From assembly GCF_000092645.1 (NCBI RefSeq), contig NC_014165.1, forward strand, positions 62,001 through 126,000: DNA of 64,000 nucleotides, read 5' to 3'. The DNA comes from Thermobispora bispora DSM 43833 (GTDB lineage: Bacteria; Actinomycetota; Actinomycetes; Streptosporangiales; Streptosporangiaceae). How positions within the stretch are numbered: the first letter of the stretch is position 1; each line of letters opens with the position of its first letter. The notes under the pieces were generated by a model that was given only the letters and a program-made list of their open reading frames with translations, did not search any database and was not told where the DNA came from. Below, piece after piece: positions 8,018 through 46,290 of the stretch. The translations under genes were made by a program, and so were the position numbers.

Positions 8018-9641
8018 GCCGGAGCGCGGTGCCGCGCGGTGGCCTCGGGCCGGGGATCGGGGCCCGGGCCGGCATGACCCGGGCGACGAGCATGCACGTG
8101 TCGTCCCGGGGGTTGCTCGGCTCCAGGACGCCCATCACCGCGGCGAGCCGGTCGGCGGGCCGGGCGCGCACCGCGTCGGCGATTGCCGTGCAGAGCACGT
8201 CCAGTCCTTCGGCGAGGTCGCGGCCCGGGCGTTCGATGAGCCCGTCGGTGAACATCACCACCAGGTCGTCCGGCTCGAGCCGTACCCGGTCGCAGCAGTA
8301 GGTGACCTGCTGGGACACGCCGAGCATCATCCCGGTGTGGAACAGCGGCCTCACCGTGTCCCCGCGGACCAGCAGGATCGGCGGGTGACCGGCGTGGGCC
8401 CAGGTGAACGTCCGGTCCGTGCTCCGGTAGTGGGCGACCACGGCCGTGGCGATCACATCGGGCCGCATGCGCTGCAGCAGCCGGTTGAGCACCACGAGGA
8501 TCTCGCCCGGGTCGTGCTGCGCGAACGCGAGCCCGGTGATGGCGTGGCGGAGCTTGGCCATCGCGGAGGCGGCGGGCAGGCCGTGCCCGGCGACGTCGCC
8601 GACGGCGAGCAGCACCTCTTCGTCGCTCACGTGGATCGCCTGGTACCAGTCGCCGCCGAGCGGCTCCATCTGCGCGGGCAGGTAGCGGACCGCCACCTCC
8701 AGATCGGCCTCGGGGAACGGCTCGTTCTGGACGGGCATGATGATGTGCTGCAGCTCGGCGGTGAGCTGTGACTCCTCTTCGAGCCGCTGCCGTACGTCGG
8801 CGAGCTGGTCGGCGGTGCGCTGCCAGTGGGTGATGTCCTGCAGCACGCCGTGGACCTCGATCGGCCGGCCCCGGATGTCCCGCCGCGCCTCGATGCACGC
8901 CCGGATGAGCCGCAGCCCGTCGGGGACGCGGATGCGGACCTCGAACTCGCACGGCCCGTCGGTCTCGGTGAGCATGGCGATCGCCTGGTCGAAGATCACC
9001 AGGTCGTCGGGGTGGACGATGGCGCGGTACTCCTGCAGGTCGAGCGGCCCGTCGTCCGGGTCCCGGCCGTGGATGGCGTAGAGCTGGGGCGACCAGATGA
9101 TCTCGCCGCTGTACAGCCCCCAGTGGACCCAGCCGAGGTTCCCCAGGCGCTCGGTGTGCCGCAGCCGCATGGCCAGCCGCTCTTCTTCGTCGAGGCGGGT
9201 CCACGAGATCAGCAGGCCGTCGCCGATGCGGGCCACCCGGATCGCGTAGTTGGCGTGGCGGACCACGCCGTCCTCGCTCTCGCTGTGCTCGTAGCGGGCG
9301 ATCTCCTCGGCCTTCCCGCTCTCCATGACCCGGAGCATGCACTCCCAGACCTCGGTGTCGCCGATCTCCGGGTTGTCCTGGCGCATGAGCCGGCCGGGCT
9401 GCGCCAGCCCGATCAGCCTGGCGGTGTTCATGGCCGTGGGGCTGGCCGCCCGCAGCTCGAAGTCGACGATCTCCCCGGACTCGTTCCGGATCGGTGTGGC
9501 CCAGACGGCGCGGTCGGCGATGGCGTCCAGGAACTCCTGGGCCAGGGTGCCGGCGCTCGTCTCCGCTGAGCGCCCGGGGAAGCCGAAGGTGGGGGCCCAT
9601 GCCCCTTGGGCCGGGCGCCTGGGAACGCGATCACCTGACAT
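7773..9641 (-). CDS. PAS-domain PP2C (SpoIIE/RsbU-type) phosphatase
   Basis: A 622-residue protein: N-terminal sensor with two PAS-like segments (about 20-150 and 165-290), a short coiled linker, then a SpoIIE phosphatase domain (about 310-540). Metal-binding acidic motifs are present: GGDWYQA, VGDVAGHG, FTDGLIER and DDTCMLV. In this family it would dephosphorylate an anti-sigma antagonist. ATG 9641 has GGGAGAGGTAGGA upstream. The recognised domain ends near 8030; the remaining ~80 Arg/Ser/Pro-rich codons are antisense to the gene at 7574-8017. The tail may be real, or the true stop may have been lost to a frameshift. Confidence 0.85.
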   Translation of the reverse strand: MSGDRVPRRPAQGAWAPTFGFPGRSAETSAGTLAQEFLDAIADRAVWATPIRNESGEIVDFELRAASPTAMNTARLIGLAQPGRLMRQDNPEIGDTEVWECMLRVMESGKAEEIARYEHSESEDGVVRHANYAIRVARIGDGLLISWTRLDEEERLAMRLRHTERLGNLGWVHWGLYSGEIIWSPQLYAIHGRDPDDGPLDLQEYRAIVHPDDLVIFDQAIAMLTETDGPCEFEVRIRVPDGLRLIRACIEARRDIRGRPIEVHGVLQDITHWQRTADQLADVRQRLEEESQLTAELQHIIMPVQNEPFPEADLEVAVRYLPAQMEPLGGDWYQAIHVSDEEVLLAVGDVAGHGLPAASAMAKLRHAITGLAFAQHDPGEILVVLNRLLQRMRPDVIATAVVAHYRSTDRTFTWAHAGHPPILLVRGDTVRPLFHTGMMLGVSQQVTYCCDRVRLEPDDLVVMFTDGLIERPGRDLAEGLDVLCTAIADAVRARPADRLAAVMGVLEPSNPRDDTCMLVARVMPARAPIPGPRPPRGTALRLTASASAPRPAASSRSAPATSRWSAAPRPGRCPVRTPPSAWRCRGTWPRLWRRSRRRCTGRRAASGGSSSVPCSPAAWRAR

Positions 9642-10453
9642 GAAAGGTCCTACCTCTCCCAAGCGCCATCCGAAAGCACCGCCCACTGTTCGCTCCCATC
9701 CGCCGGTGGTGACGTGCTGGGTCACCCGATGAGACCTCATGGGAGAAATGCACCTTCTTTCCGCCGGGAGTCCTATGTCTGCCTCTGGGGCCAGCTTCGT
9801 ACGGCGAAGCCCGCGGCAAAACCGCGGGACGTACAACCGCAGGTAGATAAACCGCCAGATTCCCCACACCGCCTCGCAGGCTCGGCGGAGCAGGTGCCCC
9901 GCCGATCGAACGGGTCTGGTTCGCCCCGGCGGGTCCGCGCCGCCCCGGCGGGTCCGCGCCGTCACGGCGTCCAGTGGACCCGCGCTCCGGACGGCCGCTC
10001 CGCGGACCGCCCGTCCCGAGGCCGGAACCCCGCCCGCCGCCCGCGGCTCCAGCCTGCGGAAACGGCGGGCACCCCGCGTTTGGGCCGCCGAAAAATCCGG
10101 TGAGTTTGTCGGTCGCGCTTGTTACGGTGCGATCCGTGTCGCCACGCGTGCCGTACCCCGACGAGGAGAAGCGCCGCACCGGCGTGAACCGCCGCCGCGG
10201 CCCGGTGCCCCGCGGGCACGTGCTCCTCGCCGGGCCCCTGGACCGTCCGCCCGGTTGACCCCTCCCACCGCGGCCGTACGGCCCGCGGCCGGCGCGGGCG
10301 CGCCCGGATCCGACCGGCCCGCCGCGCGGACGGCCGCGCCGTGCGGATGACGCGGTGTGCGCCGCATGGATGACCGGGGCGACTCGCGCCGGTGTGCACT
10401 AAACCCGACCACGCAACCTGTTGACCGTTCGACCACGCGGGCGATCGACCACG
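9642..10453. other. 812-bp intergenic region between divergent genes
   Basis: No convincing gene: the open frames here are short, Arg/Pro-rich and lack ribosome sites. It must hold the promoters of the phosphatase (leftward) and the MFS exporter (rightward). A 19-bp perfect tandem duplication lies at 9922-9959. Confidence 0.5.
9922..9959. repeat. Perfect tandem duplication of a 19-bp unit
   Basis: The unit cgccccggcgggtccgcgc occurs twice in direct succession (9922-9940, 9941-9959). It looks like recent slippage in non-coding DNA. Confidence 0.8.
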
Positions 10454-11785
10454 ATGAGCAGACGTCTTCTCTCTTGCCTTCGCCGGCGCATGCGGGCACG
10501 GAACCGGCGGACGTCCGGCCTCGGCCAGGACCTCGGCATCCTCCGGGACCGGCGCTTCACCCTCATGCTCGCCGCCCGGATGTTCTCCGCGCTCGGCCTC
10601 GCGTTCGCGCCGGTGGCCCTGGCGTTCGGCGTGCTCGAGCTGCCGGGCGCGACCGCGGCGACACTGTCCCTCGTCCTCGCCGCCGAGTCGACGCCGATGG
10701 TGCTCTTCATGCTCGTCGGCGGGGTGATCGCGGACCGCATGCCCCGCGACCGGGTGATGATGGCCGGCGAGACGTTCAACGCGATCGGGTACTTCTCCCT
10801 CGGCGCGATGCTGCTCACCGGGTGGGCCCCGGTCCCCGCCCTGGCGGCGGCTGCCGCGTTCAGCGGGATCGCCAGCGCCATCGTGGTCCCCGCCATGACC
10901 GGGATCGTGCCCGACGTCGTCCCCGCCGCCCGGCTGCAGACCGCCAACGCGCTGCTGGGGCTGGTCACCAACGTCTCCCGGATCGCCGGGCTGGTGCTGA
11001 GCGGGGCCGCCGTGGCCCTGCTCGGCGGTGGCTGGGCGCTCGTCGCGAGCGGGGCCATGTTCGCCGCCGCGGCCGTGCTGATCGCGCTGCTCCGCCTCAC
11101 GCCCGCCGAACGCGCGGAGAACGGCTCCGGCTCGATCATCGCTGACCTGCGCCTGGGGTGGCGCGAGTTCGCCTCCCGGCAGTGGCTGTGGGTCGTGGTC
11201 GCGCAGTTCTCCATCGTCGTGATGGCGGTGAACGCCGCCCACGGCGTCCTCGGCCCGCTCATCGCCAAGGAGCACCTGGGCGGTGCCCCTGCCTGGTCGG
11301 TGTTCCTCACCGGCGAGGCGGTCGGCATGCTCACCGGGGTGCTCATCGCCATGCGGATCCGGCCCCAGCGGCCCGTCCTGATCACCGCGCTGCTCGCCAT
11401 CCCCAGCGCCCTGCCGTACCTGCTGCTCGGCGGCGGCGCCCCGCTGTGGGCCGTGGTCGCCGGGGCGTTCGTGCTGGGGGTCTCCTTCGACGTCCTCGGC
11501 GTGCTGTGGAACACCACCATGCAGCGGGAGATCCCGCCCGAGGCCCTGTCGCGGGTGAGCTCCTACGACGCGCTGGGCTCGCTGATGTTCGGCCCGATCG
11601 GGCTGCTCGTGGCCGGACCGGCCGCGCTCATGATCGGCCCACGGCCGGCGCTCATCGGGTGCGCCGTGATCATCGTCGCGGTCTCCCTCGTCGCGGTGCT
11701 CTTCCCGGGGGTGCGCGGGCTGCGCGCCCCGGCGCCCGCCCCGGCCGCGGCGGCCGATGGGAGCGTCACCGCACCGGCCCAGTGA
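10454..11785 (+). CDS. MFS transporter (MFS_3/EntS-like exporter)
   Basis: A roughly 443-residue major facilitator with 12 predicted helices. The loop 2-3 signature region reads GGVIADRMPRDRV, and an Ala/Pro-rich cytoplasmic tail follows the last helix. The sequence type is the MFS_3 group, which includes enterobactin and drug exporters; the substrate cannot be told. Start is uncertain: ATG 10454 lacks a clear ribosome site, TTG 10421 and ATG 10490 are in frame. The next gene encodes a second, separate MFS protein of the same group. Confidence 0.82.
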   Translation: MSRRLLSCLRRRMRARNRRTSGLGQDLGILRDRRFTLMLAARMFSALGLAFAPVALAFGVLELPGATAATLSLVLAAESTPMVLFMLVGGVIADRMPRDRVMMAGETFNAIGYFSLGAMLLTGWAPVPALAAAAAFSGIASAIVVPAMTGIVPDVVPAARLQTANALLGLVTNVSRIAGLVLSGAAVALLGGGWALVASGAMFAAAAVLIALLRLTPAERAENGSGSIIADLRLGWREFASRQWLWVVVAQFSIVVMAVNAAHGVLGPLIAKEHLGGAPAWSVFLTGEAVGMLTGVLIAMRIRPQRPVLITALLAIPSALPYLLLGGGAPLWAVVAGAFVLGVSFDVLGVLWNTTMQREIPPEALSRVSSYDALGSLMFGPIGLLVAGPAALMIGPRPALIGCAVIIVAVSLVAVLFPGVRGLRAPAPAPAAAADGSVTAPAQ

Positions 11786-17189: not shown

Positions 17190-17519
17190 GACTCCACGCT
17201 AATCCATAATTCCTACCGTTCATATAGGTAAAGCTGAGAAATCTCCGCGGGCCGGCCGGGTCCATCGCCATGGGGCTCGCCGGCGCCATCCGGCCGGCGT
17301 GGCCCGGGGGTGGTGCCCGGCCCGGGCGTGGGCACGGTCGGGGACGCCGCCGTCACCCCGCAGGGCCTCGGCCGGCGCGAGCTGACGGCCGGGACGAGCG
17401 CGGGCGGCCGCAACCCCGCCCACCGGCCGGGACCGTGGCCGGCCCCACGCGCCGGGGGCGGACCTCGGCGGCCAGGGCGGAACACGGACGGCCGGTCGCC
17501 CGGGCCGGGGTCCGGCGGG
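17190..17519. other. 330-bp intergenic region
   Basis: No gene is supported. The first ~40 bases are AT-rich (cataattcctaccgttcatatagg) and likely hold the promoter of the leftward oxidoreductase gene. The rest is GC-rich. Confidence 0.4.
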
Positions 17520-18668
17520 TCAGGTGAGCAGGGCGTGCGCGACGCCGATCAGGGCGCCGCCCGCGATGAGCCAGGCGTGGTGGATCCGGGTCCGCCACAG
17601 CAGCCCGAGGGCGGCCACGGCGACGGCGAGCGTGAGCGGGTCCACGACGGCCTGGCGGGCCAGCTCGGCGGAGACCCCGGCCATCAAGGCGAGCGAGGCG
17701 GCGTTGACCCCGTCGAGCAGGGCGCCGGTCCAGGCGCGGGACCGCAGCCGGTCCGTGAGCCGGGTGAGCAGCCCGACGAAGACGAACGACGGCAGGAAGA
17801 TCGCCACCGTGGCGAGGAAGGCCCCGAGCGGGCCGGCGACGAGGTAGCCGACGAAGGTCGCGGTGGTGAACAGCGGGCCCGGGGTGACCTGGCCGATGGC
17901 GACGGCGTCGAGCAGCTGCCGCTCGGTGATCCAGCCGAGCCGGTCCACGAAGTCACCGTCGAGGAAGGCGAGCAGCACGTAGCCGCTGCCGTACAGCACC
18001 GCGCCGATCTTGAGCATGGTGAGGAAGAGCTGGGCGAGATCGGCGCCGTCGGCGGCGGGGAACCCCGGCCGGGCGGTGAGGAGCAGCGGCGCGCTCACCA
18101 GGGCGTGCCGCCCGCCCGGAGACGGCGGATGACGGATCAGATGGGCGAGCCCGGCGACGGCGCCGCCGCCGAACAGCAGCACCAGCTCGTTCACCCCGAG
18201 CAGGTAGCCGGCGAGCACGCCGGCCGCCAGCACGCCGAGCCAGACGCCCTTGATGACCGTGCGCACCAGGCCGGCCAGGGCGTGCGCGATGATCGCGACG
18301 ACCACCGGGGTCACCCCGTACAGCACGCCCGCCACCGCCGGCGTGCCGCCGTACCGGACGTACGCCCAGGCGAGCGCGGTCACGATCAGCGCCGCGGGCA
18401 GGATGAAGCACACCCCGGCGGTGATCAGCCCGCGCCAGCGGCCCCGATCGAAGCCGAGGTGGATCGCCAGCTCGGTGGAGTTCGGGCCGGGGATCAGGTT
18501 CGTGGCCCCGATGAGGTCGGCGAAGCGCTGGTCGGTGACCCAGCCGCGGCGCCGGACCACCTCGTCGCGCATCATCGCGATGTGCGCGGCCGGCCCGCCG
18601 AAGGCGATGGTGCCGAGGCGCAGGAAGACCAGCGCCACTTCCTTGATCGTCCCGTTCCTCCTCCGCAT
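17520..18668 (-). CDS. chrA: Chromate transporter family protein (ChrA)
   Basis: A 382-residue membrane protein with two homologous chromate-transport halves in one chain. Each half carries the family signature: FGGPAAHIAMMRDEV with GPNSTELA in the N-half, and YGSGYVLLAFLDGDF with TPGPLFTTATFVGY in the C-half. Family members efflux chromate using membrane potential or take up anions. ATG 18668 is chosen because it directly precedes the first conserved helix; the frame continues to 18959 as GC-rich noise. There is no strong ribosome site and no chrB regulator nearby. Confidence 0.9.
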   Translation of the reverse strand: MRRRNGTIKEVALVFLRLGTIAFGGPAAHIAMMRDEVVRRRGWVTDQRFADLIGATNLIPGPNSTELAIHLGFDRGRWRGLITAGVCFILPAALIVTALAWAYVRYGGTPAVAGVLYGVTPVVVAIIAHALAGLVRTVIKGVWLGVLAAGVLAGYLLGVNELVLLFGGGAVAGLAHLIRHPPSPGGRHALVSAPLLLTARPGFPAADGADLAQLFLTMLKIGAVLYGSGYVLLAFLDGDFVDRLGWITERQLLDAVAIGQVTPGPLFTTATFVGYLVAGPLGAFLATVAIFLPSFVFVGLLTRLTDRLRSRAWTGALLDGVNAASLALMAGVSAELARQAVVDPLTLAVAVAALGLLWRTRIHHAWLIAGGALIGVAHALLT

Positions 18669-33028: not shown

Positions 33029-33117
33029 GGAGAGCTCGCCTAGTGGACGATGGCGGCGGTCTTGAAAACCGCTAGGCCGGGTGACCGGCCTCGTGGGTTC
33101 GAATCCCACGCTCTCCG
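33029..33117 (+). tRNA. tRNA-Ser (anticodon TGA)
   Basis: An 89-base cloverleaf with a seven-pair acceptor stem (ggagagc / gctctcc), an anticodon stem gcggt/accgc with anticodon TGA at 33063-33065, a long variable arm (gccgggtgaccggcc region) as in class II tRNAs, and a T arm containing GGTTCGAATCC. CCA is not encoded. The last 58 bases are also the left attachment repeat, so this functional tRNA is a hybrid of chromosomal 5' part and element-supplied 3' part. Confidence 0.96.
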
Positions 33118-33120
33118 CTC
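33060..33120 (+). repeat. attL, 61-bp attachment repeat
   Basis: Identical over all 61 bases to 45931-45991, offset 12,871. It begins in the anticodon loop (tcttgaaaac) and ends three bases past the tRNA. Crossover in or near the anticodon stem-loop is usual for tRNA-targeting tyrosine integrases. Confidence 0.93.
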
Positions 33121-33333: not shown

Positions 33334-34704
33334 TCACATTCTCAGGGCGTCCTCGATCCTTTGGCTGGCGATCTCTGCGCCGCCGTCGATGCACTTGGCG
33401 TAGACCCTCAAAAGCACGTCCACCCCGTGCCCCGCGCGTTCGGCTACCTCTGGAGCTGATACGCCGGCGTTGAGCCATAGGGAGACGGCTGCGTGCCGTA
33501 GGTCGTAGGGCCGTGCCGCGAGCGGGGAGGCGACCTGTTCCGGGGGCAGGGCCAAGATCCTGGCCTGTTGCCATGCCTCGCAATAGGTCGCGATGGAGAC
33601 CACACCGCCCCGCGATGTGCGGAACAGGCGCCCGTCATCATGGACGCCGAACTCGTCGACGTGCTCGCGCAAGATTGCGACAAGCTCGGGAGGGATGGGG
33701 ACAGTGCGGCCTTCACCCTGGGCGCGGTGTTTCAGACCGCGGTCATCGTGCGCTTCTCCGGTGTCAGTCCATCGCCTGTTGGCCTGTGGCTTGGACCTGG
33801 AGATGATCAATCGACCCCAGCCTGACTCTGGCAGATGGCAGTCCTGTAGGCGGAGGCCGAGTGCTTCGGCGGGCCGAAGGCCGGCGAAGTAAAGGCAGGC
33901 GAAAAAGGCCCGCAGATGCCGGCCACGGTCCGGACGTCCTACGTACGTCACGGCGGTGAGCAGTTCCCGGGCTTGCGTGGGGTTGACGACGACCCGCCGG
34001 TCGACGACCTCGCGGACTTTCGGAGGTCTCCACGCCTTCACCTTGTCCAGCGGGTTAGAGGGCAGCTCTTCTAGATCCACGGCGTACTGAAGGACGTTGT
34101 AGAAGACCGCCCGTTTGCGGGCGATCGTGGTCGGTGCCGCGGGTGTGCCATCGAGCCGGAGCGTCAGCGCGTCGAGGCCAAGCCGTACATTCCGCACCTT
34201 CCCCAGCTCGGCCAGGGGCAGCGAGTGCCGTTCAAGCCAAGCCACTGCAGCCGCTACGTCTGCGGGACGGGGCAGGTGCCGCGCTACCGGGGGTAGGACA
34301 TATTGCCGCAGCGCTTTCCTCAAGAGCGCGAGATCCGGCTTGCCGGGAGCGTCCTCGTCGACGAGTGCAGGTGTCACCGTTGCGAGAGCATCGGTGAGGC
34401 TGTCCCGGGTCTTCGCTGCGGCGTGGGGCCATTTCATGTCAACGTAGGCCACGACGAAGGAGAACCAGGTCACGGCCTGCTTGACCTTGACCATCGAGAC
34501 CGGGAGCCCTGTTTCCACGTCGAAGGGCTCGCCCCGCTTGGCCGCCTGCCGCAGTTCCGAGAGGAAGTGCTCGGCCAGCGCCTTCGTCCGCCGTGATCGA
34601 GACCGTTGACGCCCGGCCACTGTCCAGCGGACCTCGTATGAGGGCGTCTTGCTCGACTTGTTCCGGCGGATTCCCCAGAACTTGACATCGGTAGAGGTGT
34701 TCAT
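33334..34704 (-). CDS. int: Tyrosine recombinase (AICE integrase)
   Basis: A 456-residue integrase adjacent to attL. A SAM-like core-binding domain is at about 90-200 and the catalytic domain at about 240-450. Catalytic residues are visible: Arg in AGLRPAEALGL, LRH in YDLRHAAVSLW, His in RAGHGVDV, and the Tyr nucleophile in LLRVYAKC. It should recombine attP with the tRNA-Ser gene. ATG 34704 overlaps the xis stop (ATGA), so the two are co-translated. The longer frame to 35127 lies inside rep and is discarded. Confidence 0.95.
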   Translation of the reverse strand: MNTSTDVKFWGIRRNKSSKTPSYEVRWTVAGRQRSRSRRTKALAEHFLSELRQAAKRGEPFDVETGLPVSMVKVKQAVTWFSFVVAYVDMKWPHAAAKTRDSLTDALATVTPALVDEDAPGKPDLALLRKALRQYVLPPVARHLPRPADVAAAVAWLERHSLPLAELGKVRNVRLGLDALTLRLDGTPAAPTTIARKRAVFYNVLQYAVDLEELPSNPLDKVKAWRPPKVREVVDRRVVVNPTQARELLTAVTYVGRPDRGRHLRAFFACLYFAGLRPAEALGLRLQDCHLPESGWGRLIISRSKPQANRRWTDTGEAHDDRGLKHRAQGEGRTVPIPPELVAILREHVDEFGVHDDGRLFRTSRGGVVSIATYCEAWQQARILALPPEQVASPLAARPYDLRHAAVSLWLNAGVSAPEVAERAGHGVDVLLRVYAKCIDGGAEIASQRIEDALRM

Positions 34705-34892
34705 GCCACCTCGCGGAGGGACTCCAGCCAGGCCATCAGGTCGCTGCGCCAGATGCGGAGTTCGCCGTTGGGGAGTTTGATGCACCGGGGTGCGCAGCCG
34801 AGCTCGCGCCAGCGGTAGAAGGTGCGGCGGGAGACGCCGCCGAGCTCGGCGAGTACCTCGGGCACGGTCAGGAGCCGGTCGTTGCGCGTCAT
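34701..34892 (-). CDS. xis: Excisionase / MerR-like HTH protein
   Basis: A 63-residue helix-turn-helix protein of the HTH_17 type (LTVPEVLAELGGVSRRTFYRWRELG), followed by a beta-wing reading CIKLPNGELRIWRSDL. In AICEs such proteins are the recombination directionality factors that drive excision with Int. Both ends overlap the neighbouring genes by four bases (rep upstream, int downstream). Confidence 0.9.
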   Translation of the reverse strand: MTRNDRLLTVPEVLAELGGVSRRTFYRWRELGCAPRCIKLPNGELRIWRSDLMAWLESLREVA

Positions 34893-36274
34893 CGGGCATC
34901 ACCCCCCACCGCTGACGGCATAGGCACGCCCGTGATGGCGGCGGCGAGGAGGGCGTCCCCGGCGGAGAGGCCTTGGCCGGCGTACTGCCAGTGCGCGATG
35001 ACGAGGACGGTGTCCTCGTCGAAGAGCGGGAGCCGTCCCACGCTGATCTGCTCGTCGCGCTTGTGCGCGGCCCGCGCCTCGCGGAGGGCACCGAGGGTGG
35101 TGGAGTAGCGGCGGGACTTGGTGGCAAAGTGGCCGCGGAATCCGAGCATGTGCGCCCACTGGGTCAGCCGGAGGCAGGCCAGCTCATCGAGGGCGCCGAG
35201 GCGGAGGCATTCGGCGATCAGCCGCCGGGCGTGGTCGCGGACCGGCAGGGCGGCCAAATCGGCGGTGGGCAGGATGCGCTGGTCGAGGGTGCCGACGCAT
35301 TCGGCGGCCTTGGTGGCGTACTTGGTGGCGTACTTGGCGATGTAACCGGCGACGGCTTGTGCGGTCAGCTCGCCGTCCATGCTGATCGGGCGGATGTCGA
35401 GCTGGTCGCCCCACCGCAGAACCCGTTCGGGCTGGCCGTCGAGGGCGGGGATGGTGGCGGTGACGGCGGAGGCGGCGTGCCGTACGGCCTCACCGAGCAG
35501 GTCCAGGGTGGCCCACGCGGGGGGTGGTGAGGTGGGGCCGTCCGGACCGTCGAGGCGGATGACGGCGTGGAAGTGGACGACGCCGCGCCGCTGGTATTCG
35601 GCGACCTTGGCGAAGGACACCATGAGCTGGTCGCGCATGGCGCGCGGGGCAAGGCCGCCGAGCTTTGCCAGGTGCCGGCGGAGGGCCAGGGTGAAGCGCC
35701 GCCACAGTTCGGGGGCGAGGGCGTTGAACAGCACTGAGCCGGTGTAGTCGTAGCAGTCCGGGCACAGCGGCTCACCAAGGCGCGCATCGTCGGAGCCGTG
35801 GCGGGCGGTGCAGGACATGACGCGCCCGTGCGGGCAGGTGGCGGCGTCGCGGCGCGGGTGGCAGGGCAGGACGGTGCCGTTGTTCTCCCGGCGGGTGTGC
35901 ACCGGCCCGAAGGACGGGGCGGTGAGGGTGACGAACAGGCACGGGTGCGACGTGACCGTTTCGGGGACGCCTTTGCCGCCGATGAGTCCGGCGCGGATTA
36001 GGTGGTAGGTGTCGGCGCGGTAGGTCTCGGCGCAGGAAGGGCAGCGGGAGGCGCGCCGGGTCTTGCACGGGACGCGCAGCACGCCGTCGGGTTCGGTGCT
36101 GGTGCTGTAGCGGTGGAGGAGCCGGCCGGTGGCGCGGTCGTAGTGCTCGACGGTGCCGCGCAGGTGGACCGGCCGGCGGCAGCCGCCGGTACGGCGGATT
36201 TGGGCGGCCCACCGGGCGTATTGCGGGTCGTGGAGCCGGGTGATGAGTCCGGCCAGGGCGTGGGCGGTTGGCAT
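34889..36274 (-). CDS. Replication initiator, RepSA-like rolling-circle type
   Basis: A 461-residue HUH-type initiator as in pSAM2 RepSA. Visible motifs are FVTLTAPSFG (motif 1), VVHFHAVIRLDG (the HUH metal-binding motif 2) and AGYIAKYATKYATK (motif 3 with the probable nicking Tyr). Paired Cys near residues 77-80 (CPSC) and 165-172 (CPDC) may bind zinc. It would nick a double-strand origin so the excised circle can replicate. ATG 36274 has a GAAGGGA upstream. A perfect 14-bp inverted repeat lies just upstream. Confidence 0.88.
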   Translation of the reverse strand: MPTAHALAGLITRLHDPQYARWAAQIRRTGGCRRPVHLRGTVEHYDRATGRLLHRYSTSTEPDGVLRVPCKTRRASRCPSCAETYRADTYHLIRAGLIGGKGVPETVTSHPCLFVTLTAPSFGPVHTRRENNGTVLPCHPRRDAATCPHGRVMSCTARHGSDDARLGEPLCPDCYDYTGSVLFNALAPELWRRFTLALRRHLAKLGGLAPRAMRDQLMVSFAKVAEYQRRGVVHFHAVIRLDGPDGPTSPPPAWATLDLLGEAVRHAASAVTATIPALDGQPERVLRWGDQLDIRPISMDGELTAQAVAGYIAKYATKYATKAAECVGTLDQRILPTADLAALPVRDHARRLIAECLRLGALDELACLRLTQWAHMLGFRGHFATKSRRYSTTLGALREARAAHKRDEQISVGRLPLFDEDTVLVIAHWQYAGQGLSAGDALLAAAITGVPMPSAVGGDAR

Positions 36275-36694: not shown

Positions 36695-37426
36695 TCATGG
36701 GGCGTCGGGTGTGCTGCGCAGGGTGCGCAGCAGGTCGGAGGCGAGCTGGTTGGACACGCCCAGGTGGGCGCGGAGCTGGTCGCGGGTGATGGGTTTGCCG
36801 TGCTTGGCGCGGTGTTCGTCGGCCACGCGCCGGGCGAAGTCGACCAGCGCCGGGGACGGTCCCCGAGTGCCGTCCTTGCCGTGCTGACCGGCCCGGACGA
36901 GCGCCGGGGCCGGGGACGATGTGCCACCGGTCGGGGACGACGCCTCACTGGTCGGGGACGAGGCCGGGACGGTCGCGGACCCGGGGTCGGTGACCGGTGA
37001 GGACGCCGGGACGGCGGAGGGGACGAGGCGTGGACCAGAGGCGCGGCGCTCCAGCATGGAGACCGCGATGAGGAAGGCCCCGGCGGGGGTTCCGGCGGTC
37101 AGCCGGCCCCACAGGGTCGGTTCGGCCTGGTGGAGGTTTGCGGCCAGGGACAGGGCGATGCCGGCGACGAGGACGATGGTCGGCCAGGAGACCAGGCCGC
37201 GCTGGGTGCGTCCGGTTTTCTTGTCCCGCTGGCGTTCCCGGGCGGCCATGACGCAGGTCAGGTCGACGCAGACGGCCACGGCCCAGGACATCCACCCGGT
37301 TTGGCCGCTTTCTGCGGCGGTGTCGCGGATGTGGGTGAAGCTGCCTGCTCCGGCGATGGCGGCCAGGACGACGACCGGGCCGGTGTCGGCCAGCCGTACG
37401 GCCAGGCGGGACAAGATGCTGTTCAC
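36695..37426 (-). CDS. DUF2637-type membrane protein of the AICE
   Basis: A 243-residue protein. Four predicted transmembrane helices lie in the first ~130 residues (VVVLAAIAGAGSFTHI, WMSWAVAVCVDLTCVM, WPTIVLVAGIALSLAANL, PAGAFLIAVSMLE), followed by a Ser/Pro/Thr-rich linker and a C-terminal helical HTH-like segment (ITRDQLRAHLGVSNQLASDLLRTL). This matches the DUF2637 proteins of Streptomyces plasmids and AICEs, thought to aid intermycelial spread. GTG 37426 has AAAGGAGGG upstream. Confidence 0.8.
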   Translation of the reverse strand: MNSILSRLAVRLADTGPVVVLAAIAGAGSFTHIRDTAAESGQTGWMSWAVAVCVDLTCVMAARERQRDKKTGRTQRGLVSWPTIVLVAGIALSLAANLHQAEPTLWGRLTAGTPAGAFLIAVSMLERRASGPRLVPSAVPASSPVTDPGSATVPASSPTSEASSPTGGTSSPAPALVRAGQHGKDGTRGPSPALVDFARRVADEHRAKHGKPITRDQLRAHLGVSNQLASDLLRTLRSTPDAP

Positions 37427-37458
37427 GTAGGGTTTCCCTCCTTTCTGCGGTGGTGTGG

Positions 37459-38841
37459 TCAGGCGGCGATCTGGGGGTTTTCGCTCGCGGGGGCAAGGTC
37501 GTGGCCGAGGCCGGAGGTGGCGACCTGCGCCCATGAGGGGGTGAGGTGGGCGTAGGCGGTGGCGACCTGTTCGGCCACTGCGGTGGAGACGTAGCCGGAG
37601 CGGGCGCGGTACCAGCGGCCGTCGCTGCCGGTCACGACCGCGACGCCGGGCAGCTCGGGCGGGATGGACCGGGCGGCGACCAGGGCGTCGGGGTCGAGGT
37701 CGCCGAGGGTCATCACCGCGGTTTCCGGATCGTTGACGCGGTGGCAGACCCTGCCGCCGATCTGGGCGCGCAGCGCGGTCACGCCGGGGCCGAGGTCGGA
37801 GCCGATTCGCTGGCCGGACAGCACCAGGTGTATGCCGAAGGCGCGGCCGAGCTGGGCGATCCGCAGCAGGGCGGTAGCCGTACGGGTGACCTGGTCTTTT
37901 TCCGCCTTGTCGGCGGTCAGGAACAGTTCGGCGATCTCGTCGACCATCACCACGACCGGGATCGGCCGTGAGGCGTCCGGCAGTTGCCAGATGTCGCGGA
38001 CCGCAAGCCAGCGGCAGGCCAGCATCCGGGCGCCCATGACCCCGATCAGGTCGGCCAGAAGATCCAGGCACTCCCCGCGTGTGGTGGCGAGCGCGGTCAA
38101 CCTCGGCGTGTACGGCGACAGCTCCACCCCGCCTTTGAGGTCGAAGCCGACCAGGGCGACCGGTTGCGGGGCCAGGCCGACGATGAGCGCGTTGATCAGG
38201 TTCGACTTGCCCGATTGGGTCGCGCCCGCGTTCATCCAGTGCGGGATGAGCCGGAAATCCATCCGCCACGGGGCGCCGGTCTCCAGCACCCCCACCACCG
38301 GGCGGAGCAGGTCCTCGGCCCGCCACCCGTCCGGAGGCTCAACCGGAGCGACGGCGGGGATGACGTGTGCCAAAGGGTCGCGGTTGATCCCCTGCAGGGT
38401 GACCCGGCCGGGCCGGGAGCCGACCACGCGCACCGCCTCGATGCGCCAGGCGTGCGCGAGCCGGTCGCATACCTTGGCGTAGTCCTCGGGGATCTGCCCG
38501 TCGAGCAGGTGGAAGGTGACGCGGAAGCCGTGCCGCGTGGGCCGGGGCAGGCCCATCCACGGCTTGGTGTCGACGGCGACCCGTTGAAGGCGCCGCTTGA
38601 CGCGGACTACCCCGGTCGAGGAGACCAGGCCCGGCACGGTGGTGAACCACCAGCGGTTGCGCTTTTTGGTCAGACCGCAGCCGGAGGCCACGTGCCGCCA
38701 GGACCAGCGCAGCCATACTGCTTTGCACGGGAAGCCGAACAGGTACCAGTACGAGACCGGCGCCCACTGCCGCCAGCAGACCAGCACGAGCACCAAGGCA
38801 ACGGCGAGCAGAACGGGCCGAGGCACAGGCGGCAAGGGCAT
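37459..38841 (-). CDS. FtsK/SpoIIIE-type DNA translocase (TraB/TraSA-like)
   Basis: A 460-residue conjugation ATPase. Two N-terminal transmembrane helices (VLLAVALVLVLVCW, SYWYLFGFPC) precede the motor domain, with Walker A GATQSGKSN near residue 205 and Walker B VVVMVDEIAEL near 305. In AICEs one such hexameric protein moves double-stranded DNA between mycelia, with no relaxase or type IV machinery. The ATG overlaps the stop of the upstream gene. The long extension of the frame to 39228 is antisense noise. Confidence 0.92.
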   Translation of the reverse strand: MPLPPVPRPVLLAVALVLVLVCWRQWAPVSYWYLFGFPCKAVWLRWSWRHVASGCGLTKKRNRWWFTTVPGLVSSTGVVRVKRRLQRVAVDTKPWMGLPRPTRHGFRVTFHLLDGQIPEDYAKVCDRLAHAWRIEAVRVVGSRPGRVTLQGINRDPLAHVIPAVAPVEPPDGWRAEDLLRPVVGVLETGAPWRMDFRLIPHWMNAGATQSGKSNLINALIVGLAPQPVALVGFDLKGGVELSPYTPRLTALATTRGECLDLLADLIGVMGARMLACRWLAVRDIWQLPDASRPIPVVVMVDEIAELFLTADKAEKDQVTRTATALLRIAQLGRAFGIHLVLSGQRIGSDLGPGVTALRAQIGGRVCHRVNDPETAVMTLGDLDPDALVAARSIPPELPGVAVVTGSDGRWYRARSGYVSTAVAEQVATAYAHLTPSWAQVATSGLGHDLAPASENPQIAA

Positions 38842-39176
38842 CAGCCCACCCCCGCTCCGGCCGACCCCGCCGGAATGATGGACCGCGCTCGGTAGGCGAT
38901 GCCCCACCTGCCGGCCTGCTCCCAGATGGAGGCGGCCAGACCGACCGGGACCACCTCGTCCCCCGGAGCGATCTGCGGTTCGGGGGTGACGTAGACCTTG
39001 ACCAGCTCCATTCGGCCGGCTTCGTCCTCGACCAGGAGCGTGACCTCGTAGATCGGGTTGCCGTCGCGGTCCCGCTTGATCTCGCCGGTCTCCTTGCTTA
39101 CCAGGCGGGGCCGGGGTGCCTTCGCGCACGAGATGCGCAGCATGGAGACATCGACGGGGATGGGAATGGTGCGCAT
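38841..39176 (-). CDS. AICE protein of unknown function, first gene of the transfer operon
   Basis: A 111-residue protein with a mixed alpha/beta pattern and a stretch LVSKETGEIKRDRDGNPIYEV typical of beta-hairpin SCO-type AICE proteins that precede traB. ATG 39176 has AAAGGAG six bases upstream. Its stop overlaps the translocase start. A regulatory role similar to replication activators is possible but not shown. Confidence 0.72.
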   Translation of the reverse strand: MRTIPIPVDVSMLRISCAKAPRPRLVSKETGEIKRDRDGNPIYEVTLLVEDEAGRMELVKVYVTPEPQIAPGDEVVPVGLAASIWEQAGRWGIAYRARSIIPAGSAGAGVG

Positions 39177-39261: not shown

Positions 39262-39314
39262 TTGGCGCGAGGGCCGAGGTGTGCTGAACTTGTATGCGGA
39301 GAGGGAGACAAAGG

Positions 39315-39695
39315 ATGATCGAGAAGACCGGTCGGCCTGCTTACATGCAGATCGCCGACGAGCTACGCCGGCAGATCCGCAGCGGGTCGCTGCCGCCGGG
39401 TACGGCTCTGCCCTCGATCACCCAGCTCTGCCGCCGCTACGACGTCTCGGCGAGCGTCGTCAAAGCCGCGATCAGCGTGCTCCGCACCGAAGGGCTGATC
39501 GTCGGACAGCAAGGAAAAGGCGTGTTCGTCCGCGACCCAGGAAGCGCGGCCGGGCGGGAGGTCGCCGAGACTTCGGAGATCATGGAGCAGCTCGTCGAGA
39601 TCCGCGCCACGCTCCGGGATCTGAGGGAGCGGGTGGCTGATCTTGAGTCCGCAGTCTTCCAAGAGCCGAAGCGATCTGGTGAACGCGGCAAGTGA
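39315..39695 (+). CDS. GntR-family regulator, KorSA-like
   Basis: A 126-residue protein. Residues 1-75 form a GntR winged helix (YMQIADELRRQIRSGSLPPG, then LCRRYDVSASVVKAAISVL), and the tail is a coiled coil (EIMEQLVEIRATLRDLRERV) instead of a ligand-binding domain. The divergent position at the head of the transfer operon is that of KorSA, the pSAM2 repressor that keeps the element integrated. ATG 39315 has GAGGGA eight bases upstream. Confidence 0.85.
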   Translation: MIEKTGRPAYMQIADELRRQIRSGSLPPGTALPSITQLCRRYDVSASVVKAAISVLRTEGLIVGQQGKGVFVRDPGSAAGREVAETSEIMEQLVEIRATLRDLRERVADLESAVFQEPKRSGERGK

Positions 39696-39960: not shown

Positions 39961-40998
39961 ATGAAGTCGACCCAGCGGCCCGGCTGGATACCCTCCCGGC
40001 TTCGGGAACACCGTGAAGCGCACGGACTGACCCTTGAGGCTGCGGGTGATCTGCTTCGGGAGACGGCGCGCCGTCATGGCTTGGCCGTGCCGGCAGCCAA
40101 CTTCCAAACCCTGTGGGGTCACGAGAACGGCTCGATATACCCCGGACCGCATTACCGGCGCGCCTACTGCCTGATGTATCGCGCCACCGAGCCCCAGCTT
40201 GGATTTCGGCCGCCCTTACCCGGCGAAACGGAAAAGGCGGAAATTATGATTTCCGATCTGCCCGCTCCCAGCGATCCCGCGGCCGATGAGGCCGCCGCTA
40301 AGGTCATCGAGGAGGCGGTGGCCAAGGCATCCGTGGGCGGCATCCAGCCCGACAACCCACAGCAAGTCGCCTTGCGCAACCGCATCGTCGACGCCTGGCG
40401 CAGGCGGCACGGCGGCGGCAGCCCGAGGCCGATCCTGACCCTGGTCGGCGGCTACGCCGGATCGGGCAAGACGGAGTTCTCCCGCTTCCTGTCCGACATC
40501 ACCGGATGGGCGTTCCTGGACAAGGACTCCCTCACCCGGTCGATGACGGAGCGCCTGCTCGTCTCGCTCGGTGGCGATCCTAACGACCGGCACAGTGAGC
40601 TGTACCTGACGGAGGTCCGCCCGCTGGAGTACCGGTTCCTGATGGAAGCCGCATGGGACAACCTCAACGCGGGCACCTCGGCCATCTTGTCCGCCCCGTT
40701 CATCGCCGAGCTCAACGATGAGGCGTGGTTCAAGCGGTTGGAGAACCGGTGCGCGGCCAAGGGCATCGACCTCGCCGCGATCTGGGTTCGCTGCGATGCC
40801 GAGTCCATGCGCGAGTACATCGAGTTCCGAGGGGCCGCCCGAGACGCCTGGAAGCTCGCCAACTGGGAGACATACCTTGCGGGGCTCGATCTCGAGGAAA
40901 GCCCGCCCACGGTGCACATCACCGTGGACAACCGGCTGGGTTCGGCGATCACCCTTGCCGACCAGACTCGACAGACGCTCAAGCGGATTCTGTCGTGA
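39961..40998 (+). CDS. HTH-P-loop kinase fusion (XRE-like plus AAA_33/zeta-like)
   Basis: A 345-residue protein. Residues about 10-75 resemble an XRE-type helix-turn-helix (LREHREAHGLTLEAAGDLL, NFQTLWGHENG). After a linker, a P-loop kinase domain of the AAA_33/zeta-toxin class starts near 155: Walker A GGYAGSGKTEFSR, then LDKDSLTRSMTERLL, and a lid-like Arg-rich segment (EYIEFRGAARDAW). It may phosphorylate a small molecule or RNA end. ATG 39961 has AAAGGA. It is translationally coupled to the next P-loop gene (GTGA). Similar pairs occur as AICE accessory genes. Confidence 0.75.
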   Translation: MKSTQRPGWIPSRLREHREAHGLTLEAAGDLLRETARRHGLAVPAANFQTLWGHENGSIYPGPHYRRAYCLMYRATEPQLGFRPPLPGETEKAEIMISDLPAPSDPAADEAAAKVIEEAVAKASVGGIQPDNPQQVALRNRIVDAWRRRHGGGSPRPILTLVGGYAGSGKTEFSRFLSDITGWAFLDKDSLTRSMTERLLVSLGGDPNDRHSELYLTEVRPLEYRFLMEAAWDNLNAGTSAILSAPFIAELNDEAWFKRLENRCAAKGIDLAAIWVRCDAESMREYIEFRGAARDAWKLANWETYLAGLDLEESPPTVHITVDNRLGSAITLADQTRQTLKRILS

Positions 40999-42386: not shown

Positions 42387-42430
42387 TACGTACATACGCG
42401 CAATCGGATGCACCTATGCTGCTACGTAGC
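42387..42430. promoter_or_regulatory. Promoter and palindromic operator of the second GntR gene
   Basis: TATGCT (42415-42420) is a plausible -10. It abuts the perfect 10-bp palindrome gctacgtagc (42421-42430), ten bases before the ATG. A second TACGTA lies at 42387-42392. No Shine-Dalgarno precedes the ATG, so the mRNA may be nearly leaderless and the repressor would sit on its own start site. Confidence 0.5.
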
Positions 42431-42439
42431 TTCGGCGCT

Positions 42440-42859
42440 ATGACGATCGATCCCAGCGCCGACCGCCCGGTCTACAAGCAGCTCGCCGACCTGATCCGGG
42501 CGCGCATCCAGTCGGGGGAGTACCGCCCCGGTCAGCGCCTCCCAGCCGAGAACGATTTCGTCGCCGAGTACGGCATTTCGCGTGACTCGGTGCGCCGTGC
42601 CATGGCCGTACTGAGGGGAGAGGGATTGATCGTGACGGAACTGCGCGGCTCACGCGTCCGCGAGGTCGGGGAGGCCGTCACCGTCTCGATTTCACCGGGT
42701 ACTCAGGTCGCCGCCCGCATGCCCACCGAGCCCGAGCGCAAGCAACTCGGGATTGCCGAAGGCGTCCCCATCCTGATCATCACCGAGCCGGACGGTGAGA
42801 CCCGCAAGCTCCCTGCAGACCGCACCATCATCGAGGCGAGCAAAGAACAGCAGGGTTAA
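42440..42859 (+). CDS. GntR-family regulator (second in the element)
   Basis: A 139-residue protein with an N-terminal GntR winged helix (VYKQLADLIRARIQSGEYRPGQ, FVAEYGISRDSVRRAMAVL). A short beta-rich C-terminal part (IAEGVPILIITEPDGETRKLP) reads like a truncated UTRA-type domain. It is divergent from a pair of hypothetical genes. ATG 42440 is used; the frame extends eight codons upstream. It probably regulates the divergent pair and itself. Confidence 0.82.
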   Translation: MTIDPSADRPVYKQLADLIRARIQSGEYRPGQRLPAENDFVAEYGISRDSVRRAMAVLRGEGLIVTELRGSRVREVGEAVTVSISPGTQVAARMPTEPERKQLGIAEGVPILIITEPDGETRKLPADRTIIEASKEQQG

Positions 42860-44236: not shown

Positions 44237-44322
44237 CTGCCATGCTGCGGCTGATCACCATGAGTGGTCAGGGGCGATTCGAGAGTTCATAAGGAACAGG
44301 GCCACGGTGAAAGGAGGTTGCG

Positions 44323-45603
44323 TTGGAAGCTCTAGGAGAGAATCGATCAATCTCGTTAGAGACCGACGAAATATCTACAATTTCCCAAGCCCTAAATCTG
44401 AAGTATGTGGCTACCGTTGATAATTTCCTGACCTTCGAGTCGATGGATACCGGAGTATTTCGTCGGCGAGAAGTCGCAATTCCTTTGAGTGTAGCATCTG
44501 CGATTCTTCAGGCCCTCAAGCGTGGAGCTCAGAGGATGGAGGACTGTGAGGGGTGGATTGATCCGCAAAGGGGATTCGCTGAATTTGAAATCCGGCAAGA
44601 GGGAATTGGTATGTTCAGGCGGGGGAATTTTGAAAAATTAAAGTTCGAGACTCGGCCCTGTATACATAGCCACGAGAATGATCCTCCATCAGTATACGAC
44701 GAAGTCCGCAACATAATTTATCCAGTTATTAGGGTTACATCGAGCGATGGGACTACTTGTATTGAGATATCACCCAACTCTCCTCTTTGCACTCCGCTCC
44801 TACCTTTAGATGATGATGGCCGCCCAGCTCGGGTTCAGACTCTGAAGATCTTTCTTGCAGGACCGACTGAGAAGCTGGAGCTGCTACGAAGGTCTCGTGA
44901 GCTAGCGAATTCTTTTCTATTTGAGTTAAATGTGCGCCATGGGTCACACTATTCTCTACGTTCTAGGGTAGTGGGCCCCTCACGTCCTCGACGTGCTGTA
45001 AGGACTCATGACACAGTCAGATTTCCGAGAACGCGAGTCCCTAACAATGTTGCTACATTATTCTCTATTCCCAGTGAATTCGGAATACGTAACAATTATA
45101 CATTAGCTTATTTGTCCTACTATCAGATCTTAGAGTATTATCTTCCTATTGTGCATAGGCGGGATACTATAGAAAGAGTACGCAGAATTCTACGGTCGTT
45201 AGATTTTGATGAAGAAGAAGATTTCTCTGTATTGCAGATAGTGACCTCCGTTGAGCGTTCGCATGGTGCAAGTGAGATTGATCAATTGCGAACGCTTATA
45301 GAAAAATGTGTACCTGAAAGTAAGTTGAAGGAATTTTTTTCGCTTGACCATAACGGCCATTTTGGTAAGCGTGGGCCGATATCTGGGGTTCCTGCTATCT
45401 ATCCCACGAGCGGGGAGTCTTTAGCTTCTCAGGTGGCAAAGCGGATCTACAAGTTGCGCAATAGAATTGTGCACGCGAAAGATGATGCCCGCTATTCTGA
45501 ATCCACGGTACTATTGCCGTTCAGTCATGAGGCAATGCAACTTTATCCCGACATAGAACTCCTGCGACTCCTGGCGATTGAGGTAATTGTAAGTAACCAA
45601 TAG
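44323..45603 (+). CDS. AT-rich cargo gene with C-terminal HEPN-type motif (possible ApeA-like antiviral protein)
   Basis: A 426-residue cytoplasmic protein. TTG 44323 is set by a perfect AAAGGAGG five bases upstream. Residues about 1-230 look beta-rich. The C-terminal part (about 240-420) is helical and contains R379-N-R-I-V-H384 in YKLRNRIVHAKDD, the R-N-x3-H form of the HEPN RNase motif, as in ApeA-like HEPN proteins. Base composition is strikingly AT-rich (some lines near 35% GC), with many codons unused by neighbours, a sign of recent transfer. It lies at the far end of the element from int, the usual cargo position. HEPN nuclease function is inference. Confidence 0.68.
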   Translation: MEALGENRSISLETDEISTISQALNLKYVATVDNFLTFESMDTGVFRRREVAIPLSVASAILQALKRGAQRMEDCEGWIDPQRGFAEFEIRQEGIGMFRRGNFEKLKFETRPCIHSHENDPPSVYDEVRNIIYPVIRVTSSDGTTCIEISPNSPLCTPLLPLDDDGRPARVQTLKIFLAGPTEKLELLRRSRELANSFLFELNVRHGSHYSLRSRVVGPSRPRRAVRTHDTVRFPRTRVPNNVATLFSIPSEFGIRNNYTLAYLSYYQILEYYLPIVHRRDTIERVRRILRSLDFDEEEDFSVLQIVTSVERSHGASEIDQLRTLIEKCVPESKLKEFFSLDHNGHFGKRGPISGVPAIYPTSGESLASQVAKRIYKLRNRIVHAKDDARYSESTVLLPFSHEAMQLYPDIELLRLLAIEVIVSNQ

Positions 45604-46290
45604 CTGTCACTTGCTAGCTGGACAGCTGCCGCAGGTCAGTCATGGGAACGCATGCCTTCCCGCTTCGTGGATCGATCACGTTGGGACAGCGGTGGTGACA
45701 GCGAGCTCAGCGCAACTGGCACACTATGGCGACCGTCGTAGCGCTATGCATGATACGGACCACGTGGTGGCCGATGTGCTGGAGGCCATGGAGATCCTGC
45801 ACAACGGGATTGATCGTGGATTAGCGCGTTCCCCGCAGCGAGGGATATGTGCGGGATGATTTCTTATGCCAGCCCATCGCTTAGGGTTGAGCCGCAGATC
45901 AAGGCGGGGCGGATGGAGGGATCGTAGTGCTCTTGAAAACCGCTAGGCCGGGTGACCGGCCTCGTGGGTTCGAATCCCACGCTCTCCGCTCAGCCCGACG
46001 AAACGGCGTCTGACCTGCGGTTTCGCCCCGGTCAGGCGCCGTTGATCGTTTAGGGCGTGTGCAGCCGTAGGCCAGCATGGGCAATCATCGGCCGCTGGTC
46101 GCGGCATGATTCGCCTTTCAGGCGCGTCGGGCCATCTAGAGCCCGGTGCGAGGATCCATGGCGGTACAGAATTACGCGAGCCCTGAGTTCTGGCCCTAGA
46201 GAGCCGGAAAGCGCCCATCCGATTAGAGCTCGGTCGTTTTTTCGACGACGAGCGAGGGCTGCACTGTGGGCGCGATCCACTCCCCACCGT
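45604..46290. other. Right junction of the element and adjoining non-coding DNA
   Basis: Holds ~320 bases of unassigned DNA after the cargo gene, then attR, then ~115 bases similar to the element's left end, then ~180 bases without features. An 82-codon frame at 45611-45859 has no support. Confidence 0.5.
45931..45991 (+). repeat. attR, 61-bp attachment repeat
   Basis: Perfect copy of 33060-33120: the tRNA-Ser(UGA) 3' part from the anticodon loop on. The 5' tRNA half is absent, so this is not a functional tRNA. Immediately downstream (45992-46106) the sequence remains about 80% identical, ungapped, to 33121-33235, including the terminator hairpin. Confidence 0.93.

Follow-up and report, generated by a model that had tools for sequence, protein, structure and literature searches.

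A cargo gene at the end of an integrative and conjugative element of Thermobispora bispora encodes a candidate stand-alone HEPN-type defence protein

The AT-rich gene at positions 44323-45603 of the window (the 64,000-nt stretch of Thermobispora bispora DSM 43833 analysed here, NC_014165.1 positions 62,001 to 126,000, to which all coordinates refer unless a locus is named) probably encodes a stand-alone defence protein of the abortive-infection type, with a putative N-terminal sensor joined to a predicted HEPN RNase and carried as cargo of an actinomycete integrative and conjugative element (AICE). An anti-phage role is considered probable because relatives of the gene are found in the same AICE slot, in a BREX operon and beside restriction systems. 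The kind of defence protein is a known one, but the candidate family to which it is best assigned is new and lies within the MauJ/DzbB-type branch of HEPN domains.

Host element and cargo gene

The element possesses the gene content and the boundaries of an AICE: a tyrosine integrase, RepSA, an FtsK-type Tra protein, Spd, GntR regulators and tRNA-derived direct repeats. Its two 61-bp repeat copies are identical and bound it exactly, and from its sequence it is a complete-looking AICE. Its features are as follows.

33060-33120, + strand: attL, the 61-bp repeat over the 3' part of tRNA-Ser (33029-33118)
33334-34680, - strand: tyrosine integrase (PF00589)
34889-36274, - strand: replication initiator RepSA (PF20199, E 1.9e-170)
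36695-37450, - strand: SpdB-like/DUF2637 transfer protein (PF10935)
37459-38850, - strand: FtsK/SpoIIIE-type DNA translocase, TraSA-like (PF01580)
39294-39695, + strand: GntR regulator 1 (PF00392)
39961-40998, + strand: AAA_33 P-loop protein, conserved in AICEs of this type and a marker for them (PF13671)
42416-42859, + strand: GntR regulator 2 (PF00392), from which the cargo slot extends to attR
44309-44317, + strand: strong ribosome-binding site, GAAAGGAGG, a few nt 5' of the TTG
44323-45603, + strand: AT-rich cargo gene, 426 aa, intact ORF with TTG start
45931-45991, + strand: right end of the AICE (attR), where the second 61-bp copy lies in a truncated pseudo-tRNA-Ser

The cargo gene is the last substantial gene before attR, 327 bp inside it and at the end opposite to the integrase. 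The initial annotation had placed it at the non-integrase end of a mobile element, had described an abrupt drop in GC and had seen a textbook ribosome site before the TTG start; all three hold. The gene has a GC content of 46% against about 68% for the remaining element. By codon position its GC is 0.55/0.41/0.42, compared with 0.72/0.55/0.90 in the element's rep gene, and at the third position the element's own genes range from 0.77 to 0.90 against 0.42 in the cargo gene. Comparison with the 60%-identical protein of Streptomyces huiliensis gave a dN of about 0.29 and a dS of about 4.8 (saturated), and indicates that the gene is under purifying selection. In the same comparison, dN is 0.44 for the N-terminal part and 0.20 for the HEPN part, so that the N-terminal part has evolved about twice as fast, the pattern expected of a sensor.

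Two other features of the element deserve mention. The segment 45903-45989 is called a tRNA-Ser by ARAGORN, not by Rfam; only its 3' part is tRNA-derived, and it is a truncated pseudo-tRNA left by integration. The AAA_33 P-loop protein has matches in 86 of 346 genomes of the order and makes a useful marker for this type of AICE.

Domains, motif and predicted fold

The protein is divided into two domains, the second of which contains the predicted active site.

About residues 10-215: N-terminal alpha+beta domain (structure model)
About residues 240-426: C-terminal HEPN-type domain (structure model)
45133-45135, + strand: E271 of helix 2, acidic and invariant, predicted to belong to the active site as well
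45457-45474, + strand: RNRIVH (R379-H384), predicted catalytic HEPN motif (domain alignment)

RNRIVH lies exactly at R379-H384, where it was first noticed, and the models show the helical C-terminus and beta-rich N-terminus that had been proposed around it. In a 426-aa protein of this composition, RNxxxH is expected 0.04 times by chance and any Rx4H about 1.1 times. Since Rx4H is expected about once, the motif alone is weak evidence; it becomes meaningful because it is invariant in 16-17 homologues. P235, Y267, E271, R379 and H384 are invariant in an alignment of 16 proteins, and Y267, E271, R379, V383 and H384 in a domain alignment of 17 members; R379, H384 and E271 are kept in homologues of identity down to about 15%. 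The residue that follows the motif R is N in 14 of the 17 domains and C in three, so that Rx4-6H is conserved throughout with a polar residue after R, as in HEPN domains.

Confidence in the full-length model is high across the C-terminal part, and the domain-only model (residues 230-426, built from 17 sequences) has a pLDDT of 88 and a pTM of 0.84. In the model, RNRIVH stands at the end of core helix 3 (367-383), a loop and helix 4 come next, E271 sits in the long helix 2 (259-291), and three extra helices are inserted between helices 2 and 3. This agrees with the published description of the HEPN domain arrangement and with its rule of an acidic residue in helix 2 (PMC3710099). In VIA-align the best matches of the domain are all solved HEPN domains: AbiV (Z 7.3, 124 residues aligned), SO_3166 (Z 6.7, 115) and HepT (Z 6.0, 112). 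The next chain is unrelated and scores Z 3.6; Z values of 6-7 fall in the range where the tool warns of common helical arrangements, and only HEPN chains score there. The helical bundle sought at the C-terminus is thus predicted at residues 240-426, with HEPN proteins as its closest structures. Foldseek gave no significant match to the PDB with either the full-length or the domain model, nor to viral models with the domain model; since its E-values are not significant, the case for the HEPN fold rests on the motif and on the gap in Z that separates HEPN chains from the others. PDB sequences yielded no significant match, whether the query was the single protein or the alignment.

Two further matches were set aside. 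Helix-grip/START-like folds matched the N-terminal domain with Z up to 3.6, too weakly to name its fold, and an AbiJ_NTD5 match at residues 278-333 (E 0.0035), which lies within the HEPN helices, was regarded as fortuitous.

Distribution and possible domain swapping

The homologues are rare and patchy. Whole-genome searches of 347 genomes of the order found relatives in 6 besides this one, and in a set of 395 genomes drawn from the class the figure was 7. A pattern scan found the Streptomyces huiliensis homologue (60% identity) and a frameshifted one in Streptomyces sp. JHD 1 (66% in the better segment). Plasmid-borne relatives occur in one cyanobacterium and in Priestia. No homologue was found among phage records and viral contigs, and NCBIfam gave no match. 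The homologous genes have 47-60% GC inside loci of 63-74% GC; they are likewise GC-poor in their own loci, and low GC is thus a property of the family.

The N-terminal domains fall into several groups. The main group and the L017/L021 group have N-terminal domains that look related to each other (hhalign probability 88), and those of the L018/L012 group do not look related to the main group (probability about 10). That the domains of one subgroup fail to align with the main group would fit a single effector combined with different sensors.

Genomic neighbourhoods of the homologues

Homologues recur in AICEs, in a BREX operon and in restriction-modification (R-M) islands, with no common housekeeping context, an outcome that favours the defence role proposed at the outset. 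The L027 homologue stands inside a type 2 BREX operon, with pglX before it and brxC/pglY after it (pglW-pglX-[gene]-brxC/pglY-pglZ-brxD). A cytosine methylase, Vsr and a type IV enzyme are encoded in the region of the L015 homologue; the L017 homologue belongs to an AICE and has genes for a cytosine methylase, Vsr and type IV and type II restriction enzymes beside it. After the L018 homologue comes a gene for a TIR-domain protein that resembles ThsB and PDC-S66. For L003, L016 and L029 no defence context was present in the sequence seen, and the visible context of these three and of L031 is uninformative. The L027 homologue (9215-10540) is possibly an unrecognised BREX accessory gene.

At least seven other AICEs carry a homologue: backbone genes lie near it in the window, L002, L013, L014, L017, L018, L026 and L030, and in part in L032. 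The att repeats were identified in four, namely the window (61 bp), L002 (44 bp), L014 (46 bp) and L026 (46 bp), and in each the gene is close to the attachment site at the end far from the integrase. These four differ in integrase, target tRNA or backbone, and AICE, BREX and R-M contexts are intermixed in the domain tree, which together indicate that the gene has moved between elements.

The cargo slot in related AICEs

The slot, taken as the region downstream of the conserved P-loop gene, was surveyed in 20 related AICEs, and the genes scanned with PADLOC were chosen by us as large or AT-rich. Its contents include a type IIG system in L048 (L058 has a gene of the same length and start), type I R-M genes in L049 and L055, HmaB-HmaC-like genes in L050, a Lamassu-type LmuB in L056 and Rosmerta-type RmrA proteins in L047 and L059. 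A control of 10 genes outside elements gave three matches, two of them generic (a kinase and LolE) and the third a type IV enzyme from a locus for which attR was not found; since the slot genes were picked by the authors and the control also gave matches, the survey describes what these slots hold and does not serve as a statistical test. R-M and Abi genes have already been reported as AICE cargo, along with non-defence cargo and decay in half of AICE cargo (PMC9513070), the last two counting against a defence role. What the surveyed loci add to that report is the fixed end position of the cargo.

Several AT-rich slot genes have no PADLOC match and are further candidates for undescribed defence genes: L063:13072-15519, L054:15063-16325 and 17317-18300, and genes in L057 and L062. 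A gene for a HAD-type hydrolase-like protein (LFDLDNTL motif) is located just inside or near attR in L047, L048, L058, L059 and L061, and marks the outer edge of the slot in many such AICEs.

Proposed mechanism and significance

In the mechanism that we infer, the fast-evolving N-terminal alpha+beta domain would sense a signal linked to infection and, before triggering, would keep the C-terminal HEPN domain inactive. Once triggered, paired HEPN domains, with R379, N380, H384 and E271, would cut RNA without metal, and the cutting would lead to cell arrest or death and stop the growth of the phage. The RNase activity, dimerisation, autoinhibition, phage trigger and target RNA in this scheme are all predicted properties of the protein.

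The protein may instead serve the AICE itself, as an addiction toxin or as an entry-exclusion RNase acting against cells that lose the element or receive a rival one. Toxin-antitoxin addiction modules are known on AICEs (PMC9513070), and HEPN domains are the toxins of MNT-HEPN pairs, SO_3166 and HepT, two of the three closest structures, being of that kind. This is nevertheless unlikely: the cargo protein is about three times the size of the HepT toxin and has no evident paired antitoxin, only AICE backbone genes recurring beside the homologues seen, and one homologue lies inside a BREX operon, where element addiction makes little sense.

With these results a hypothetical cargo gene becomes a testable defence candidate with named predicted catalytic residues, and the space from the second GntR gene to attR of AICEs becomes a place to seek further actinobacterial defence genes. 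There is perhaps an even chance that the homologues together form an undescribed single-gene anti-phage family, in which a MauJ/DzbB-type HEPN RNase is combined with varied N-terminal sensors and is passed among AICEs, BREX operons and plasmids. Were this so, a HEPN RNase would be the predicted means by which DzbB acts, and the end slot of AICEs would be a systematic source of actinobacterial defence genes.

Comparison with known families

The closest profiles to the C-terminal domain are MauJ and DzbB, a component of the known anti-phage system Dazbog. The DzbB profile (PADLOC PDLC03836) is matched over positions 203-309 of 341 (E 3.7e-8), the matching stretch including the RNRIVH region, and it matches 15 of 16 homologues with a best value of 4.5e-17. 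In nearly all members the alignment covers only positions of about 185-315; the N-terminal domain shows no alignment to the profile, and the cargo protein does not qualify as a full-length DzbB. Dazbog includes a DUF262 protein that is needed for resistance (PMC10952713). The profile matches would also suit a split Dazbog-like system in which loss of the DUF262 sensor DzbA has left the effector half as a non-functional orphan. Such an origin is improbable, given the restricted alignment, the purifying selection on the gene and the lack of any PF03235 (GmrSD_N/DUF262) match in the whole genome, where control genomes were positive, or next to the homologues examined. The link drawn between an uncharacterised domain, known in databases as MauJ or DzbB, and HEPN RNases offers a concrete guess at how Dazbog acts.

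Pfam MauJ (PF17419) is homologous to the C-terminal domain and matches 15 of 16 family members (best 8e-8), one of them, on a Priestia plasmid, being named by NCBI as methylamine utilisation protein MauJ, but a metabolic role is most improbable, for the match is restricted to the HEPN-type domain, which is here joined to an N-terminal domain, and stays under the cut-off for the cargo protein (19.9 bits vs 28), and no methylamine genes were present at any locus in the feature tables seen, the contexts being mobile and defensive. The name probably reflects the shared domain. Its use for the homologue in question (L012:1716-3098, Priestia megaterium plasmid pB1.3), which is located near a gene for a CHAT-domain protein, looks like a misannotation.

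ApeA is a single-gene protein with an N-terminal domain and a C-terminal HEPN domain bearing an Rx4-6H motif, and the cargo protein has the same architecture. The initial annotation had pointed to ApeA-like HEPN proteins for comparison; its proposal of a foreign single-gene anti-phage RNase is supported as a prediction, as are the HEPN fold and motif, but ApeA is not the closest family, the domain being nearest to the MauJ/DzbB type. PF18739 matched the cargo protein with E 0.098 and 13.5 bits against a cut-off of 24.4, and matched 4 of 16 homologues, all weakly.

Among solved structures, the abortive-infection HEPN protein AbiV (PDB 9bj7) is the best match (Z 7.3, rmsd 4.0, 124 aligned), with 11% identity to the cargo domain; AbiV typically lacks the H of the motif (PMC3710099), which the cargo protein keeps. 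RnlA of RNase LS (PDB 6y2s, 6y2r, 6y2p) likewise joins N-terminal domains to a C-terminal HEPN RNase. Whole-chain alignment gave Z 3.2-3.4 with an rmsd of 15-17, so the arrangement is not shared, and RnlA is paired with the antitoxin RnlB, whereas none is seen beside the cargo gene. By these profile comparisons the cargo protein is neither ApeA nor DzbB, and is judged to share an effector domain of the DzbB/MauJ type.
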